Positions 2,222 through 9,963 of a stretch of DNA of 38,330 nucleotides are shown one piece after another (the first letter of the stretch is position 1; the number at the start of each line of letters is the position of its first letter). Location of the stretch: assembly GCA_002694035.1 (NCBI GenBank), contig NZKY01000026.1, positions 9,549 to 47,878 on the forward strand, read 5' to 3'. The notes beneath the pieces are model-generated. The model saw nothing but the letters and a program-made list of their open reading frames with translations, was not told the DNA's origin and made no database searches. This DNA is from Opitutia bacterium (lineage in GTDB: Bacteria; Verrucomicrobiota; Verrucomicrobiia; Opitutales; Seribacteraceae). Position numbers and translations under genes: made by a program.

Positions 2222-4813
2222 TTAATCCAAATTAAGTGGGTCAATCACCAAATTCCACTCTGGATTATTCCAATCACCAAATATTTTAAATTTAATAAGC
2301 ATAGATAAGGGGTCTGCAATCTGAGTGAGCTTTCCGATTAGTGGAATATTTCCTATGATCTTCAGAGTTGAATTAAAGTTAATGGTTTTTTTATCTAAAT
2401 CTATGTACCCTTTATTGTTTAGTTTAGAAAAGTTCCCCGACATAATCATATCTTCAAAAATGAACCTATTATTTTTGAACTCAAAAAGACCATCTAATTT
2501 GTTGAAAGTTAATGAAGCAGTAGGGATAGGGATTGTCAAATTAGCAAGTACTTCAGAAATTACTCCCAGTAAAGGAATTTTACTTAATTTTTTATCGCGG
2601 ACTTGAATACTTCCTGAACCTTCAAGTTTCTTATAATTGGTCGACGGGCCAGATGCTTTTAAAAAGAAATTTAAAATACCTTCATCTTTATTCTGATCGT
2701 GAATTTCATCAACTTGAACCTGAGAATTTGCTTCTCCGAAATATTTTCTGAGAGCAATTATTGTGTTATTAATGCTACAACTTTTCAGCTCAGTAGTTAA
2801 TTTAATTCTCTCACCGATGTGATCATTTTCTGAAAAAAGTGACATTTCACCTTTGTCAAATTTAACACTATTTAAACTCAAAGTCGTGATCGAAGAGTTT
2901 GACTCAATTTTACCAATTGCTGAATTAAAAGGTATATCATTCCAGGTGCCGTTTTGATCTGTCCTAAATTTAATTGAATAGGAAAGCGGGTTTTCAATTC
3001 TTTCAACCGTATTTTTAAATTCAAGAGGAATGCGACCACTTGAATTAAGATATGCATATGACAGGTTGAAATGATTTAGGTATTTTTCTATCTCAGTCCC
3101 AAAACATAACTTTCCAAGATTAAGTGGGTAATCACCTTCAATTGAATAATCTAAGATGTTATTTTTTCTTTCAAAAGATAGAGTTCCACTAATCTCACCT
3201 TCTTTATGTATTAAGGAAGGTGAAATTAATTTTGTGAAATTTTCATCTACGATTATCTCAAGCTGAGAGTGATATAACGGGAGCTTTCTGTAAGTTATAT
3301 TGGCACCTGATACAAAACCATGTGTGAAAGATTCTGTTAAATCACCCCATACGCCAGAGATTATGAAATTACCTTTTGGGAGATTTTTTTTATCGAAGGA
3401 AAAATCATGCCAAATATTTTCCCACCAAGAGCCCAACCAAGTATTTAGGTCAGTTGGTAAGCAAACTCCATCAACAACAAATTTATATGTATTTGGAGAC
3501 CATTTTTGAAAGAAAGATCCATTAACTTGGCTCTTCCCTACAGAGCCATTTACATCGTTTAAAAATATAGTAAAATTTGAGTCTAAATTACCCTGTGCTT
3601 TAACATTTGTGGGCGGTGAACCTAAGACTGAAAAGTTTTTTGTATTCAATTTAAGAAAGTGGTCATGATTTCCGAGGAGAGAATCAAGGGGACGAGCAAA
3701 AATCTCAAAATATTCTCCGCCTATGAGAGTTTTTTGTCCTTCAGTTGTATTTAAAATTAAATCTGAATATAGTGGAAATACTCGCATTGAAACATCCATT
3801 GAAATTTGGCTTTTATTTTTTTTAGTTAAACTAGCTGAGACCTTTAAGAAGTTAGAGTTCGTTAAAGCAGAAAAAACCGATTTGTTTTCATTTATATTTC
3901 CGAAAATTGTATGGTCTTTCAGATTGCCAACTATTTTACCTGATAGATTTATGGAATTTGCGTTTATTTTGAAACCAAAACTATCATGTAAAATCTTTGC
4001 TCCTCTGAAATCTAAGTTTTTTATTTCGAAAATTTGATCGTGTATATTAAATTTTAGATCATCGACTTTTAATGATGAATTTATATTTTTTAATGATGAG
4101 TCAGTTACAATGTGAAAATTTAAATTATTGTATGAGGGGTTCTGTGATATTTTGTTTTTTTGATGAATAAAAACTCTTATTTGATTCCCAAACTCGAAAC
4201 TACAAATATGAGATTGCTTAAAATTAAATGGCTTTAAATATTTTGTATAGTTGTCTATTTGTTGAGTGAGGAGATTAATTGAATTTGTAAATTTTGTAAT
4301 GTCTATTTCTCCCTTAGAAGTTGAAATTTCCTGTTCTTTTTTCTCAATCGATCCTCTTAAATTAATTACAGAAAATTCGTTTTCGATCGAAGAGAATATT
4401 TTGATATTGTTAAGTGCGTTTTGAACTATTAACTGTTCAATTTTAATTATTTCTTTATTGTTACCAGTAAGAGTCGAAATTTGATCAGCTTTAACCACTT
4501 TAGGGTAAAAAGAAATAACATCCCAAAAGGAACGAAATTTAAACTCAATATTTTCACCTTTTGCTATATTGTTACCGTATTCATCATGTAAAACTATGCT
4601 CTTAACGTATAGATTATTTTTATGAAATCTCACTCTATCAATCTTTAAATGATTAAAAATCGGGTGAAACTTTTTTAAAAGACCATTGATCTCTGGGAAC
4701 TCGAAACCGAAATAAAAAAATGAAAAGATTGTAAATTGCAATCCTAGTAATAAAGAAAGGAAATAGGTTAATATACTAGATTCTTTTCTTCTAAAAATTT
4801 TTTTAGGGTTCAA
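2222..4813 (-). CDS. AsmA-like (YhdP/TamB superfamily) inner-membrane-anchored protein
   Basis: Large envelope protein of 863 residues: a basic N-terminus, one hydrophobic anchor at about residues 15-35, then a long beta-rich stretch with many short alternating strands and few cysteines. The end resembles the AsmA C-terminal region: a segment around LTFNKLDGLFEFKNN followed by a membrane-proximal turn and GNIPLIGKLTQIADPL. Related proteins (AsmA, YhdP, TamB) bridge the periplasm and are thought to move phospholipid to the outer membrane. It starts with TTG 7 nt after the DUF4340 stop, and no other start lies close to the anchor. It ends the long operon and directly follows the ABC/GldG/DUF4340 genes, hinting at a joint envelope role. 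The specific function is unknown. Confidence 0.7.
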   Translation of the reverse strand: MNPKKIFRRKESSILTYFLSLLLGLQFTIFSFFYFGFEFPEINGLLKKFHPIFNHLKIDRVRFHKNNLYVKSIVLHDEYGNNIAKGENIEFKFRSFWDVISFYPKVVKADQISTLTGNNKEIIKIEQLIVQNALNNIKIFSSIENEFSVINLRGSIEKKEQEISTSKGEIDITKFTNSINLLTQQIDNYTKYLKPFNFKQSHICSFEFGNQIRVFIHQKNKISQNPSYNNLNFHIVTDSSLKNINSSLKVDDLKFNIHDQIFEIKNLDFRGAKILHDSFGFKINANSINLSGKIVGNLKDHTIFGNINENKSVFSALTNSNFLKVSASLTKKNKSQISMDVSMRVFPLYSDLILNTTEGQKTLIGGEYFEIFARPLDSLLGNHDHFLKLNTKNFSVLGSPPTNVKAQGNLDSNFTIFLNDVNGSVGKSQVNGSFFQKWSPNTYKFVVDGVCLPTDLNTWLGSWWENIWHDFSFDKKNLPKGNFIISGVWGDLTESFTHGFVSGANITYRKLPLYHSQLEIIVDENFTKLISPSLIHKEGEISGTLSFERKNNILDYSIEGDYPLNLGKLCFGTEIEKYLNHFNLSYAYLNSSGRIPLEFKNTVERIENPLSYSIKFRTDQNGTWNDIPFNSAIGKIESNSSITTLSLNSVKFDKGEMSLFSENDHIGERIKLTTELKSCSINNTIIALRKYFGEANSQVQVDEIHDQNKDEGILNFFLKASGPSTNYKKLEGSGSIQVRDKKLSKIPLLGVISEVLANLTIPIPTASLTFNKLDGLFEFKNNRFIFEDMIMSGNFSKLNNKGYIDLDKKTINFNSTLKIIGNIPLIGKLTQIADPLSMLIKFKIFGDWNNPEWNLVIDPLNLD

Positions 4814-4820
4814 TATATTT

Positions 4821-6569
4821 TTAGGGATCAGATTTACTCAAGATGCTTTGCAAATTTTCAATAAGATCAACATCTAAGTTGAAAGTAAGATTATTGTCTT
4901 TAAAAGAAGCTAACCACAATGTAGCACCGAGTTGTTCACTCAGCATTAATCTGTCTGGATTGATATTTTCAGGATAAGCAAAATCGAATTCCACAATATG
5001 TTTCCAAGGAACCCAATCTCCTTTATGCCAAGTTCCGTCATTTTCACTTTTACGATTCAAATATGCTTTGATTTTAGAATTTAAGAATAACTTTGAAGTA
5101 AAGGTATGATTTTTATCAAATATCACTTCTTCATTATTTTTATTAAGTATTCTTAAAGTTTTGATCGAATATTCGTCAGGAAAATAATCTTTATTTAAAA
5201 ATTCAAAATTTTTATAACTTAAAATTTCATTAAAACTTTCTTCAATCAGACATAATATTGAAAGCTCTGGTACAAAAATTTTTCTGAGCGTTGCATCCTC
5301 AAATTTATTGTTACAAAGAATAGTGATAGTAGATGTATCACTGAATTTAATCTGTATAGATTCTGAATTGTTTTCAAACTCAGAAGTGTTTAGCTGATTT
5401 TGAGTCGGATTAAAGGAGAGAAATTCAATAACTTCCAACGAATTTAGTTTCTTAATTAGTTGCTTTATCATGTCAGGATCAGCAACTGAATCGGATAGGG
5501 TGCCTCCCTTTAATTTCCAATCATTCTCGCCTTTCTTAAGAATCAAGTTTTCATCGTTTCGGTTAATTTTGATTTGATTTATATCAAGGTATTGAAATTG
5601 AAAAATTCTCTTTTCGCGTAATTTAGTAGACCAATCAGATAAATTATTTAGGAAAGAGGATTCTATCTTGAGTAGATTTGAAGAATAGTTGGATAAACAA
5701 AAACAAAATTTTTGATTTCCTTGTTCGACGGTTTCGCTTAACAAAAATGTTTGGTTTCTATCTCCTGTTTCGACTGTAAGCTTGCTTTTCCAATTATCTC
5801 TTAAATTTAACTTATTTTTGAATGTTTCATTATTGTCTATTTTAATGATTTTTTCATTAAGTAAATTTCCCAATAGTGTTCTGACTTCATCTGAATTGGT
5901 CTGAGCTACAAAGGGGTATGAAAAAGCCCATTTATTTTGTTTTTTTTGTAAAGTAGTCTTAGTTGTTAATTTATTTTCTGATTTGAATTGGACGGTCAGT
6001 TTATCAATTTGATAAAAATTTGAATTTATTAAATCCATATTTGCCCATGATGAAATTTCTGTATCGGAAAGCTCAACGATCTCTTTTGAAATCCTCCATA
6101 ATTGGTCAGTTGGCACATTATTTATTTCCAGTTTACAAAAAACAGTTTCTGAATCTCTACAATCTGCACCAAGGATGAATTTTGAAGTAGAATTTAAACG
6201 CTTTACAGATATGGATGTTGAATTTGAATTAATTCCATAATCAATTAGTTTTTCACCTCTTTCTTTGATTTCACTTAAATTAGCGTATTCAATAAATTTA
6301 ATATGTGAAAAAGTATTAAGGAATTTTGATATTGCGAAGTAATCTAGTCTCCATTTAAGAGGGGATTTAATTTTCCAATCATAATTATCTTTAGAAAATA
6401 TAATATTATTTTTGTTCTTATTTATTACTATTTCAGTGATTGAATTTATATCAGTTAATTCATTCAACTCGCTATTTCGCAAATCATTGTTTTTTTCACT
6501 TTGACTAAAGTACAAAATTATAAATAACAAAAGATTGGAAATAATGAGTAGATTTTTTATTTTTCTCAT
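4821..6569 (-). CDS. DUF4340 domain-containing membrane-anchored protein
   Basis: A 582-residue protein with one N-terminal membrane anchor (about residues 6-22, LLIISNLLLFIILYF) and a large extracytoplasmic part. It contains repeated blocks of the DUF4340 type: short strands with a W-K-I/L pattern (DNYDWKIKSPLKW near 60, NKWAFSYPF near 215, NDWKLKGG near 350). DUF4340 proteins are commonly encoded directly after a GldG-like protein and an ABC-2 transporter, as here. The biochemical role is not known. The ATG lies one base past the GldG-like stop, so the two are translated together. Lys, Asn, Ser and Ile are very frequent, in line with the AT-rich genome. Confidence 0.75.
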   Translation of the reverse strand: MRKIKNLLIISNLLLFIILYFSQSEKNNDLRNSELNELTDINSITEIVINKNKNNIIFSKDNYDWKIKSPLKWRLDYFAISKFLNTFSHIKFIEYANLSEIKERGEKLIDYGINSNSTSISVKRLNSTSKFILGADCRDSETVFCKLEINNVPTDQLWRISKEIVELSDTEISSWANMDLINSNFYQIDKLTVQFKSENKLTTKTTLQKKQNKWAFSYPFVAQTNSDEVRTLLGNLLNEKIIKIDNNETFKNKLNLRDNWKSKLTVETGDRNQTFLLSETVEQGNQKFCFCLSNYSSNLLKIESSFLNNLSDWSTKLREKRIFQFQYLDINQIKINRNDENLILKKGENDWKLKGGTLSDSVADPDMIKQLIKKLNSLEVIEFLSFNPTQNQLNTSEFENNSESIQIKFSDTSTITILCNNKFEDATLRKIFVPELSILCLIEESFNEILSYKNFEFLNKDYFPDEYSIKTLRILNKNNEEVIFDKNHTFTSKLFLNSKIKAYLNRKSENDGTWHKGDWVPWKHIVEFDFAYPENINPDRLMLSEQLGATLWLASFKDNNLTFNLDVDLIENLQSILSKSDP

Positions 6570-6570
6570 A

Positions 6571-8172
6571 TTAAAGATCTTTTCTCAACCATCCAACAAA
6601 CCCCCCTAATAAGATTACAGAGATAGGGATTATTGATATCCCGTACAAAAATTTATGGAAATCTTTTTCGTTCATTTCTAGATTGTAAATCTTTACTTCT
6701 TTACCACTAGTTGCAATTAATTGATCATATTTAGCCAACCAATTAATTATATTCTTAGCCAATATTTTGTTGCCGGTGCTTTCTTTAAGTCTCTTGTTAT
6801 TAACAAGACCTGAACTTCCAAAAACTGCAATCCTACCTCTTCTATTGTTTGAATTACTGCTGTTTGAGGTTTCTTCAGATATGGCAACTACTGGAATCGG
6901 TCCTTCTACATCAAGCAGTTCGTTAATATTTGGGGGAAAGGATCTATCCACCCATGAAGACAACGCCCAAGAACTCTTGGATGAAAAGATTATTTCATCA
7001 ACATTAAATTTCGTTGAGGAATTAGAAATTGCTTCTACTGGTCTAAGTCTTGAGGATTTTATATAGTACCTTCCTTCGCTAAGATCTTTGACAATAGAGT
7101 TTTTTTGGTTTTTTTGGTAGGTTTTTAACCAATAATCGCCAGAAAAAAAATCATAGTTATTTTTCACTGGGTCATGAATTAACAAATCGTGACATCTTAT
7201 GCCCCATTCTTTAAGGATATTGCGTAATCCGTAAGCTGGTTTATCAACTAAATATATTTTTTCATCGGGATCGATTGAAATGAGAACTGAACCTTTTTCA
7301 TTTTTTACAAAGTTTCTTATAACGGCGATTTCTTTTTCGTAAAAAAGTCCATCAGGTCCGATAATCACAAGAATCTTACAATTAGATGGAACATTCTCAA
7401 TTTCAGCTAAATTTATAGTCGATACCTTAAAGTTGATTCTTTCGAAAATATCTTTTAACTCAGAAAAGCCGTCATTTATGTTTGAATTGTATGGATTTCC
7501 CTCACCATGACCTTGGGTAAAATATACGGTGTTTTTTTCATTTTTTGAAGCTGCTATTTCTAGGATTGAGTTTAGAATTAAGGACTCTCCATTGAATTGA
7601 GTAGGCTCAAAAATTCCATTTATAGATTCTTTCCAATTGCTGTAAAAACCTGATTCCCAAACTTTTTCCCTAATTAATGAATTATTTGACCGATAATTTG
7701 AGTTAACTGAAAGAATATTTTCATCATCGGAATCATTGTAACTAAACAGAATTTTTTTTCTATTTTGTTCGGTTGTTATTATAATTGCATTTCTTTTTAC
7801 TAAATTAAATCTTTTTACAACTTTAGCATCCTTAATTGAATCAATGTTTATTCGGTGAATTCTTATTGGAAATTTTGACTTATAACTTTCAAAGCTATCC
7901 AAGACGATGCCTAAGTCATGCAAGAGTTTCTGAATTATTTTTGGGTTTTTACTTCTTTCTTGAATGGTAATAAAAATATCGACTGGGCATTTAATCTCAT
8001 TGAGGCGAATTTTCGAATCAAGCGAAAGACTATGTTTCTCTTTTTTAGACAAGTCAACGAAGCCATCAATTTTGGAAAATAAAAAGTTTAAAGCAAAAAA
8101 AAGTGTAATTAAAAGTGCAGAAGAAACGAAAATGTCTTTTCTTTTATTTTTGGAAGATTGTCTGAAGTCCAT
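6571..8172 (-). CDS. GldG-like auxiliary component of ABC transport system
   Basis: A 533-residue protein with an N-terminal transmembrane helix (about 15-33), a long periplasmic region and a second helix at the C-terminus (about 508-526, ending GGFVGWLRKDL). The middle contains the ABC-transporter auxiliary (GldG/IFT52-like) fold, with NTVYFTQGHGEGNPY near 215 and KILVIIGPDG near 265. GldG works with GldA and GldF in gliding Bacteroidetes, but homologues are widespread in non-gliders and their substrate is unknown. The start overlaps the stop of the permease gene in a TAATG arrangement. Function here is inferred only from family and neighbours; gliding should not be assumed. Confidence 0.8.
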   Translation of the reverse strand: MDFRQSSKNKRKDIFVSSALLITLFFALNFLFSKIDGFVDLSKKEKHSLSLDSKIRLNEIKCPVDIFITIQERSKNPKIIQKLLHDLGIVLDSFESYKSKFPIRIHRINIDSIKDAKVVKRFNLVKRNAIIITTEQNRKKILFSYNDSDDENILSVNSNYRSNNSLIREKVWESGFYSNWKESINGIFEPTQFNGESLILNSILEIAASKNEKNTVYFTQGHGEGNPYNSNINDGFSELKDIFERINFKVSTINLAEIENVPSNCKILVIIGPDGLFYEKEIAVIRNFVKNEKGSVLISIDPDEKIYLVDKPAYGLRNILKEWGIRCHDLLIHDPVKNNYDFFSGDYWLKTYQKNQKNSIVKDLSEGRYYIKSSRLRPVEAISNSSTKFNVDEIIFSSKSSWALSSWVDRSFPPNINELLDVEGPIPVVAISEETSNSSNSNNRRGRIAVFGSSGLVNNKRLKESTGNKILAKNIINWLAKYDQLIATSGKEVKIYNLEMNEKDFHKFLYGISIIPISVILLGGFVGWLRKDL

Positions 8173-8951
8173 TATCTATTGACTCTTTCAATTTGAAGCA
8201 CGGAAAGCATTAGGAAAAATAGAGTGAGGTTAATTTGATAAAGAATTGTTTTAATCTTTATTATTCCTAGGCTAAAATTCTCTATCGAGGTTAACCCATT
8301 GTTAAGAAATTCAAAGCACCTGTAGATGATATCTTGAATATTAGAGGAATAATATGTTGATGAGCTGGTTTTAAAATTGAAAACCATTATAAAAATTAAA
8401 ACTGTCAGCTTTGTAAAAGTCAACATGCCTGCCACCATTTGATTTTTCGTTAAAGAACTCGAAAAGATTCCGATGGCTGTGAATGTTGCACCATAAGACA
8501 AAATAAAAAATAAATTCCCTGCCCAAGATTCAATTTGATCGAAACCGAGATTTTCAGCTTGTGTTGGAAAGAGCAATGTAAACAGCAGAGGATATAAAAA
8601 ACAAAGCAAAGTAATGGTAGTAAAAAAAAGAAAACATGCAGTCCATTTTCCAATGACAAGGCTTGTAAAGTTTATTGGTGCCGAATTTAGAGTTTCTAAG
8701 GTTCCAAGTTTTTTCTCTTCGGCAAGACTTCTCATGGTTAGAAAAGGAACAAGGGCGGGAGAACCAAAAAACAAACCTAGTGTAATAGAAGATAGTGGGG
8801 TAAGTATCCAATCGGTGTGGATGAAACTTTCGATAAAATATCTAAAGCCAACACCGATAAGTGAGAGGAAATAAAAGGAAGAGACATATGTCGCTGGAGA
8901 AATAAAAAGTAAAAAGATTTCGTATCTGAGAATCACAAAATAAGAGTTCAT
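8172..8951 (-). CDS. ABC-2 type transporter permease, GldF/NosY-like
   Basis: A 259-residue integral membrane protein with about six predicted helices (near residues 10-30, 50-68, 105-127, 145-162, 175-195 and 235-252). It resembles ABC-2 permeases of the GldF/NosY group, including the RSLAEEKKLGTLETLNSAP coupling segment before the third helix, which is typical of the family. It would form the membrane channel driven by the ATPase encoded one base upstream. A GGAAG stretch lies about 9 nt before the ATG. Substrate is not predictable from sequence. Confidence 0.88.
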   Translation of the reverse strand: MNSYFVILRYEIFLLFISPATYVSSFYFLSLIGVGFRYFIESFIHTDWILTPLSSITLGLFFGSPALVPFLTMRSLAEEKKLGTLETLNSAPINFTSLVIGKWTACFLFFTTITLLCFLYPLLFTLLFPTQAENLGFDQIESWAGNLFFILSYGATFTAIGIFSSSLTKNQMVAGMLTFTKLTVLIFIMVFNFKTSSSTYYSSNIQDIIYRCFEFLNNGLTSIENFSLGIIKIKTILYQINLTLFFLMLSVLQIERVNR

Positions 8952-8952
8952 T

Positions 8953-9963
8953 TTATTTAATCTTCCGTTCTAATGAATCAAAGTAGTTCCAATTCTCATT
9001 TGTTGCTCTAAGAAAAATTGATTCCAAATTTGGTCTGTTTATTTGAAATTCAAATATTTTAAAATTTTCTTGGTTTACCAGATGACGAATAATCGTTACT
9101 GCAGTTTCTTCACCTTTGTCTGTGGTGAAAACAAATCTTCTTTTTCCTGTTAGATCAACTGGATCGTCAGTAATGAGCTCACATGACTCGTCAATCGATC
9201 GAATTGATTTTTTTATGTTAATTTTTCTAGTTTTGGCTACAACCTCGAATTTTGTTTTCGTAATAAATTTTTCCTGCAAACGATTTAATGTTCCCTCGGC
9301 TACGATCTGTCCATGACTTAGAATAATCATGCGATCGCAGCACGCTTCGACTTCTGATAAGATATGACTTGAAAGTAAAAAGGAAACTTCTCCTTTTAGT
9401 CTTTCCATCATTTTGCGTGTGACAGCAGATTGATGAGGGTCTAAACCAATAGTTGGTTCGTCTAGAATAACTAGACGAGGTTCAGCTAGTATAGAATCGG
9501 CAATTCCTACTCTCTGTCTAAAGCCCTTCGAAAGATTTCCAATTTTTCTTTCCGAAATTCTTCGCTCGATATCACATGTTTCAAGAGATATTTTAACGCG
9601 TTCCCTTAGGCGACTGCCACTCAAACCTTTCAGCTTAGCTCTAAAATTAAGATATTCTATTACTCTCAAGTCATCAGGTAAGGGATTATTTTCTGGTAGA
9701 AAACCTATGAGGTTTCTGACTTCACCGTCTCCTTCCGCCAAATCAACACCGCACACCTTCGCTTCCCCCGAATCAGCTGAAATTAGACCTGCCAAAATAC
9801 GCAAAGTAGTGCTTTTACCAGCTCCATTTGGACCAAGAAAACCTACAATTTCACCCTTCCCAACAGAGAAGCTTATTCCTTTAATTGCATTAATTCTACC
9901 GTACTTTTTTTGCAAATTAATAACTTCAATTATTGGAGTAGGCTTGTTTTCAGGAGTGCTCAC
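8953..9963 (-). CDS. ABC transporter ATP-binding protein, GldA/CcmA-like
   Basis: Supplies energy to the adjacent permease. In its 336 residues: Walker A GPNGAGKS (44-51), Q-loop region around 85-95, ABC signature LSKGFRQ (144-150), Walker B with catalytic Glu in LVILDEP (164-170), D-loop IGLDP and the H-loop in LSSHILSE (about 196-203). A roughly 100-residue C-terminal extension, typical of GldA-like ATPases, follows. The start is GTG; it overlaps the coaX TGA as GTGA, so coaX and the transporter module are coupled in translation. Confidence 0.92.
   Translation of the reverse strand: MSTPENKPTPIIEVINLQKKYGRINAIKGISFSVGKGEIVGFLGPNGAGKSTTLRILAGLISADSGEAKVCGVDLAEGDGEVRNLIGFLPENNPLPDDLRVIEYLNFRAKLKGLSGSRLRERVKISLETCDIERRISERKIGNLSKGFRQRVGIADSILAEPRLVILDEPTIGLDPHQSAVTRKMMERLKGEVSFLLSSHILSEVEACCDRMIILSHGQIVAEGTLNRLQEKFITKTKFEVVAKTRKINIKKSIRSIDESCELITDDPVDLTGKRRFVFTTDKGEETAVTIIRHLVNQENFKIFEFQINRPNLESIFLRATNENWNYFDSLERKIK

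Follow-up and report, generated by a model that had tools for sequence, protein, structure and literature searches.

Conserved gene linkage in Verrucomicrobiota suggests that an ABC pump with GldG-like and DUF4340 proteins feeds an AsmA-like lipid bridge

The window – the whole 38,330-nt stretch of Opitutia bacterium DNA that was analyzed – carries five adjacent open reading frames on the minus strand between positions 2222 and 9963. In gene order these encode an ABC ATPase (GldA-like, 8953–9963, 336 aa, GTG start), an ABC-2 type permease (GldF-like, 8172–8951, 259 aa), a GldG-like protein (6571–8172, 533 aa), a DUF4340 protein (4821–6569, 582 aa) and an AsmA/YhdP-like protein (2222–4813, 863 aa, TTG start). 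The junctions are, in turn, a 1 nt gap, a 1 nt overlap, a 1 nt gap and a 7 nt gap: all five of the near-contiguous genes claimed in an earlier note on this DNA were recovered in the ORF map, with junctions of 1–7 nt. Absent from that note is the longer same-strand gene run in which the module is embedded. Upstream lies coaX (type III pantothenate kinase, PF03309, 9960–10736, minus strand), the frame of which shares 4 nt with that of the ATPase; the first gene downstream of the AsmA-like gene, after a 78 nt gap, is accB (biotin carboxyl carrier, PF00364, 1700–2143, minus strand), followed by accC (biotin carboxylase; PF02786, PF00289 and PF02785; 299–1687, minus strand). All three are neighbours outside the core. 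Promoter-like sites were rarer than in shuffles (40 against 61.4) and the promoter and terminator scans were therefore set aside.

Four of the module proteins exceed Pfam cut-offs, for ABC_tran, ABC2_membrane_3, ABC_transp_aux and DUF4340. The ATPase (PF00005, 94.2 bits) has intact motifs: Walker A (GPNGAGKS), signature (LSKG), Walker B (LVILDEP) and H-loop (SHI). The permease matches only ABC2_membrane families in Pfam (PF12698, 38 bits, over the cut-off) and has, by hydropathy, about six candidate membrane segments. The GldG-like protein, which passes the PF09822 gathering score (71.4 against 34.7 bits), has a predicted membrane segment at each end and a large predicted periplasmic region with a GIFT/IFT52-like domain (IFT52_GIFT, 27.2 bits); a profile of its homologues matches IFT52 structures (best 2.4e-11). 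The DUF4340 protein passes the PF14238 gathering score (69.4 against 25 bits, in two stretches), and hydropathy gives it a single N-terminal anchor, with its tandem DUF4340 domains placed in the periplasm. Hydropathy thus agrees with the six-helix permease, the GldG-like protein anchored at both ends and the singly anchored DUF4340 protein of the earlier note.

The AlphaFold2 model of the DUF4340 protein has a mean pLDDT of 88.8. Foldseek returned no match to it at E 0.001 or better, and the best VIA scores belonged to a thioesterase-like protein (Z 5.8) and to YycH (5.1). A lipid-binding fold was considered and rejected, the structural matches being weak and uninformative; lacking any convincing relative among known structures, the model gives no indication of lipid. 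Long and short DUF4340 proteins are both present in several genomes of the same class, and a DUF4340 domain is reported as essential in Verrucomicrobium spinosum (PMC12283558); it may belong to this module or to its paralogue.

The first three proteins are distant relatives of GldA, GldF and GldG of gliding Bacteroidota, and the best NCBIfam matches of the ATPase and the permease are GldA and GldF. The locus could on these grounds be a gliding-motility GldAFG module beside which the AsmA-like gene is incidental. However, both matches miss their curated NCBIfam thresholds by a wide margin (TIGR03522, 267 against 402.6 bits; TIGR03518, 76.8 against 288.5 bits), and the AsmA linkage is phylum-wide (84 of 120 listed genomes, below). 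A role in gliding is therefore very improbable. A further difference from GldAFG is that DUF4340 and AsmA-like genes come next in the module.

The fifth protein, taken by itself, reached no Pfam model in hmmscan; its match to the YhdP C-terminal model PF13116 (E 4.3e-7) is below the cut-off. Among 14 of its homologues, seven match PF13116 and one matches PF05170 (AsmA). A profile of 92 homologues matched E. coli AsmA at 9.9e-17, YhdP at 1.3e-15 and TamB at 1.6e-8, while all 14 control proteins gave E values of 0.48 or worse; hhalign probabilities were 96.3 against AsmA and 86.7 against YhdP. These comparisons uphold a label that had been given by eye: judged from its sequence, the protein is a remote AsmA/YhdP relative. 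The sole PDB sequence match of the profile, apolipoprotein A-IV (E 0.0059), was judged to be chance. The gene is the only YhdP-family match in this genome, in which neither PF04357 (TamB) nor PF05170 gave a match.

Hydropathy gives the AsmA-like protein one N-terminal membrane segment (residues 14–32). Its structural model is mostly beta strand, with fair confidence, over residues 385–860 and poor in the N-terminal half (mean pLDDT 56; residues 63–384 below pLDDT 50). The best structural match is a remote one, to ApoB100; the bridge structures of TamB, YhdP and VPS13 are absent among the structural matches listed, which proves nothing. The predicted N-terminal anchor and the long, apparently beta-rich body resemble those of E. 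coli YhdP, TamB, YdbH and AsmA, and the length of 863 aa compares with 617 for AsmA, 879 for YdbH, 1259 for TamB and 1266 for YhdP. In contrast to the four E. coli genes in the regions fetched, the module gene adjoins a complete ABC/GldG/DUF4340 set.

The distribution of this arrangement was surveyed across the phylum Verrucomicrobiota. Of 288 genomes, 213 have both GldG-like and AsmA-like genes, 29 only the former, 7 only the latter and 39 neither, counts that are not corrected for kinship. Linkage – both genes on one strand and within 10 kb, AsmA downstream of GldG-like – was found in 84 of the 120 genomes for which matches to both genes were among the matches listed (AsmA in 143 of 220 genomes with a match, GldG in 149 of 242; weaker matches are omitted). 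It holds in 41 of 44 genomes of this order, in none of 13 from other orders of the class and in 43 of 63 from the rest of the phylum; this genome and two others (G033 and G036) contributed to the search profiles. Two unlinked genomes (G150 and G302) have pieces of the module at contig ends. Gene maps of 40 loci show the five-gene order kept across the phylum, and the AsmA gene adjoins the module in 60 of the 65 named loci with a resolved GldG frame, some named loci seeming identical to contigs of the surveyed genomes. A further 15 of the 80 named loci fetched are unresolved, probably because greedy longest-ORF calling fails: it misses genes in some loci, as at L190 (G252), where the ORF map showed no module genes and genome searches place GldG and DUF4340. 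The earlier note had held that adjacency in this genome alone would speak against a joint system and that recurrent co-occurrence would support one; the counts (84/120 and 60/65) exclude the former and bear out the latter.

Its other caveat, that the module may commonly occur with no AsmA-type protein, is only half excluded: AsmA-free modules do exist. Outside this order, the rest of the class (0/13 linked) has both genes, which lie apart, and a second, paralogous ABC/GldG/DUF4340 module of related genomes has an AsmA gene in 0 of 15 loci. G029, a reduced genome from this order, still has the ATPase, permease, GldG-like and DUF4340-like genes, and an AsmA gene was not detected in it. Outside the phylum, plasmid p195_1 of Bradyrhizobium sp. 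195 carries ATPase, permease, GldG and DUF4340 genes in identical order, with a short DUF4340 frame (9332–9859 of the fetched stretch L184, about 175 aa); there a HupE/UreJ gene comes next instead of an AsmA gene. The existence of such modules implies that this type of pump has other uses.

The genes flanking the module differ between loci. In this genome and several relatives it lies among nadC, birA, coaX, accB and accC, which would fit a growth-linked operon of envelope and cofactor genes that share regulation and have no joint mechanism. We consider this quite unlikely: among the 65 resolved named loci these neighbours are far less conserved (birA 17, coaX 12, nadC 5) than AsmA (60), and the paralogous module never carries AsmA. 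Adjacency of accB and accC to the module is not general, accB being within the fetched stretch in four of the 60 linked named loci. A sixth conserved gene after AsmA was sought and rejected: ten neighbouring proteins, about 290–480 aa long, are not related to one another (PrmA, AP_endonuc_2, Radical_SAM, secretin, Na_Ca_ex and other families; no match for two of them), which makes AsmA the apparent last gene of the module. Also rejected was a DUF4340–AsmA fusion in G246 (L077): only the C-terminal part of this 1365-aa frame is AsmA-like, no DUF4340 profile matches it, and its N-terminal part was taken as a spurious long frame.

That the ABC module and the AsmA-like protein are partners is well supported by genomics, and their linkage suggests a pump feeding an AsmA-like lipid bridge. 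We infer the cargo, direction and contact of the pair as follows. ATPase and permease would form an inner-membrane ABC pump, on the periplasmic side of which the GldG-like and DUF4340 proteins would sit; the AsmA-like protein, anchored beside the pump and spanning the periplasm as a beta-groove, may be the bridge for the substrate that the pump delivers; ATP hydrolysis would load inner-membrane lipid, most likely phospholipid, into the groove, which would deliver it to the outer membrane. We advance this one-machine reading tentatively, its chances falling somewhat short of even. It draws on the conserved order (84/120 listed genomes, 40 locus maps, 60/65 resolved loci) and on the pairing with a family whose members are proposed phospholipid carriers (PMC10900882); the pairing appears specific to this module because the paralogous one has AsmA in none of 15 loci. 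A lipid cargo is hinted at by the fatty-acid synthesis genes accB and accC, which immediately follow the module in this genome and some related ones. Counting against one machine are the 0/13 linkage in other orders, the G029 set with no detected AsmA, the poor N-terminal model and remote ApoB100 match of the AsmA-like protein, and the AsmA-free related modules.

The linkage data (84/120, 60/65, paralogue 0/15) also fit a partnership in which no lipid is pumped: ATP cycles in the cytoplasm would move the GldG-like and DUF4340 proteins to open, assemble or regulate the bridge, through which lipid would flow unaided, as has been suggested for other AsmA-like proteins. Synthesis-driven flow with no dedicated pump has been named as an alternative (PMC10900882). 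The large periplasmic parts of both proteins would suit such force transfer. ABC-2 permeases, however, usually transport hydrophobic or polymeric substrates, and we hold this version rather unlikely. Alternatively, the module may export other cargo (lipoprotein, glycolipid or polysaccharide), with the AsmA-like protein serving that cargo or outer-membrane assembly generally. The literature searched names no substrate for GldG/DUF4340 pumps, and the AsmA-free paralogue and the related Bradyrhizobium module would sit well with other cargo; yet no cargo-specific genes travel with the module, both flanks varying between loci, and we judge this unlikely.

Lipid export by a single five-protein machine, which we prefer, would have a counterpart in the Lpt system (LptB2FG, LptC, LptA, LptD), likewise an ABC pump with periplasmic adaptor proteins and a beta-groove bridge. 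The overall layout would be alike, built from other parts: the Lpt permease is of the LptF_LptG family (PF03739), matches to which lie outside the module in this genome (contigs C36 and C10), whereas the module permease belongs to ABC-2 families. A wider proposal makes the module the motor, in the inner membrane, that drives an AsmA-type phospholipid bridge; such a machine would run parallel to Lpt and might be the chief route of phospholipid export in many Verrucomicrobiota. It is conceivable and, on present evidence, doubtful. MCE systems (Mla, Pqi, Let), described in PMC12800296 as transporting lipid between the inner and outer membranes, differ in their MlaD/MCE domain, which is absent from all five module proteins; the sole MlaD match in this genome is on contig C71, outside the module.

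Phospholipid transfer from the inner to the outer membrane is still poorly understood. A 2024 study of AsmA-like proteins noted a lack of data on how these extract lipid from the inner membrane and judged the known ABC pumps unlikely to perform this step (PMC10900882). The linkage of an AsmA-family gene to one particular ABC module across much of a phylum, absent from the paralogue, provides a specific candidate for the motor and makes the extraction step testable; if the proposal is true, it would point to a function of DUF4340 and GldG-like proteins beyond gliding motility. Relatives carrying the locus include Coraliomargarita and Opitutaceae, examples in which the candidate motor could be tested.

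The module comprises five consecutive genes on the minus strand, read from the window's ORFs, with gaps that are nearly nil: an ABC ATPase with a complete set of catalytic motifs (8953-9963), a permease (8172-8951), a GldG-like protein (6571-8172), a DUF4340 protein (4821-6569) and an AsmA-like protein (2222-4813). The first four are assigned by Pfam and the last by a profile of homologues. By hydropathy, candidate membrane segments number six in the permease and two in the GldG-like protein, one per terminus, while the DUF4340 and AsmA-like proteins each have a single one near the N terminus; the gene run, six-segment permease and anchors described in the earlier note are confirmed. The same run includes coaX, birA and nadC upstream, and accB and accC downstream. 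The closest named relatives are from Opitutae/Opitutales (Verrucomicrobiota), with 36% identity for the GldG-like protein, and the window's order is accordingly presumed to be Opitutales.

As a single sequence the AsmA-like protein has no match in Pfam, NCBIfam, PHROGs or PDB sequences. Its label was nonetheless upheld by a profile of 92 homologues, which matched E. coli AsmA (9.9e-17) and YhdP (1.3e-15), TamB more weakly (1.6e-8) and YdbH not at all (0.18); 14 further E. coli proteins used for comparison scored 0.48 or worse. Profile-profile comparison gave probabilities of 96.3% for AsmA, 86.7% for YhdP and <4% for TamB and YdbH. Among 14 homologues from the order, Pfam recognized YhdP in seven and AsmA in one, and the sole match to the YhdP family in the window's own genome is the module's gene (E 4.3e-7, under the curated cut-off). 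An AlphaFold2 model built on 14 sequences is fair over residues 385-860, a predicted extended series of beta-strands, and poor up to residue 384 (mean pLDDT 56). Its top structural match, a beta region of ApoB100, is remote and not decisive (Foldseek 2.5e-5; by VIA, Z 11.4 with 349 residues aligned at rmsd 11.7).

The pairing of the AsmA-like gene with the ABC module is real, widespread and specific. Across the window's genome and 37 relatives, the AsmA-like gene was detected in 34/38, the GldG family in 38/38 and DUF4340 in 37/38. A phylum survey of 288 genomes, each at least 90% complete, returned AsmA profile matches in 220 and GldG matches in 242: both in 213, AsmA only in 7, GldG only in 29 and neither in 39, counts uncorrected for kinship. 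The "GldG only" class partly reflects detection sensitivity, because one such genome (G174) carries a weakly scoring AsmA-like gene beside its module. Linkage (AsmA downstream of GldG within 10 kb, on a shared strand and contig) was counted in the 120 genomes with both genes among the matches listed, and was found in 84. Co-occurrence across Verrucomicrobiota, proposed in the earlier note as support for a joint system, holds among the matches listed for the order (41/44) and for the phylum outside the class (43/63), but not for other orders of the class, where AsmA was never adjacent (0/13). Gene maps of 40 loci show the order ATPase-permease-GldG-DUF4340-AsmA recurring across many families.

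A second collection held 80 named loci, the GldG frame being resolved in 65; AsmA adjoins the module in 60 of these, and two of the other five end too early (L118, L149). With these and the 84 linked genomes, the adjacency is not peculiar to this genome, the outcome that the earlier note had held against its proposal. Nor is it a binning artefact, since some named loci come, going by record titles, from isolates or single-cell genomes (Coraliomargarita sp. SDUM461004, Opitutaceae EW11, AG-457-L13, AG-913-J04). A frozen wider neighbourhood does not account for it either, because birA (17), coaX (12) and nadC (5) are sparse among the 65 loci and the genes downstream of AsmA belong to unrelated families between loci. 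In three families an AP_endonuc_2 (xylose-isomerase-like TIM barrel) gene adjoins the AsmA-like gene (L046:12904-13896; L051:12524-13405; L084:4035-4976, the last with AsmA apart from the ABC module).

A paralogous ABC/GldG/DUF4340 module, present in the window's genome and relatives, provides a control. In this genome it lies on the minus strand of contig C46 (L062:1440-7198), where a 998-aa frame has permease-like and GldG-family (PF09822) matches; within the genus this frame is accompanied by a DUF4340 protein of ~650 aa, and elsewhere in the order GldG is ~640 aa and the DUF4340 protein ~380 aa. No AsmA gene lies near it in L062, and the AsmA profile (E 0.01) matched no frame in any of 15 paralogous loci. 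The same scan was positive in four linked loci (the window, L046, L064, L098) and found nothing in two unlinked ones (L097, L190). The AsmA gene is therefore tied to one specific paralogue rather than to every GldG pump. A named Opitutales locus (L154) carries tandem ABC/GldG sets on a single strand, with DUF4340 after the second.

Several genomes run against the pairing. The AsmA gene is on a separate contig in three families of the order (G028, G034, G035) and located elsewhere in three more genomes (G115, G183, G210). In the 0.9-Mb genome G029 the pump is retained along with a DUF4340-like gene, called by eye and unmatched by PF14238, but AsmA went undetected; two long proteins, each a string of many short leucine-rich repeats, lie a few kb upstream of its module (L061, contig C31, 1-4081). 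Outside the phylum, a related module on the conjugative plasmid p195_1 of Bradyrhizobium sp. 195 differs in its short DUF4340 gene and absent AsmA gene; it is flanked by N-acyl homoserine lactonase-family and HupE/UreJ-family genes.

A joint machine of the five genes is the best reading of these data, and some functional partnership between ABC module and AsmA-like protein is judged likely. With the genome's LptF/G and MlaD matches located elsewhere, the module is neither Lpt nor Mla; Pfam TamB and AsmA searches of the genome gave no match, PF05170 being insensitive enough to miss the module's own gene. The accB and accC genes, whose products catalyse the opening step of fatty-acid synthesis, come immediately after the module in the window's genus, G032, G037 and G137, and one gene farther downstream in G027. 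According to the accessible text of a transposon-sequencing study, a DUF4340 domain is essential in Verrucomicrobium spinosum (PMC12283558), although the gene may be either module's, several genomes of its class having two DUF4340 proteins. Both observations are indirect hints of a dedicated lipid module. AsmA-like proteins are proposed phospholipid conduits; a 2024 Pseudomonas study states that data are lacking on how these proteins draw lipid from the inner membrane, and argues that dedicated machinery should be essential, LptBFG and LolCDE being unlikely candidates (PMC10900882). The most likely single mechanism is putative ATP-driven loading of phospholipid by the ABC module into the AsmA-like bridge; if true, the module would supply this missing machinery. 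The pairing is undescribed in the portions of PMC literature covered for these families; most subscription papers and bioRxiv fall outside that scope, and an earlier description may therefore exist.

The DUF4340 protein is confidently modelled (pLDDT 88.8) as a predicted anchored repeat chain, for which structural search gave no clear relative. The profile of the GldG-like protein matches IFT52 structures (GIFT domain, 2.4e-11) and, weakly, the eukaryotic oligosaccharyltransferase subunit WBP1 (0.00038).
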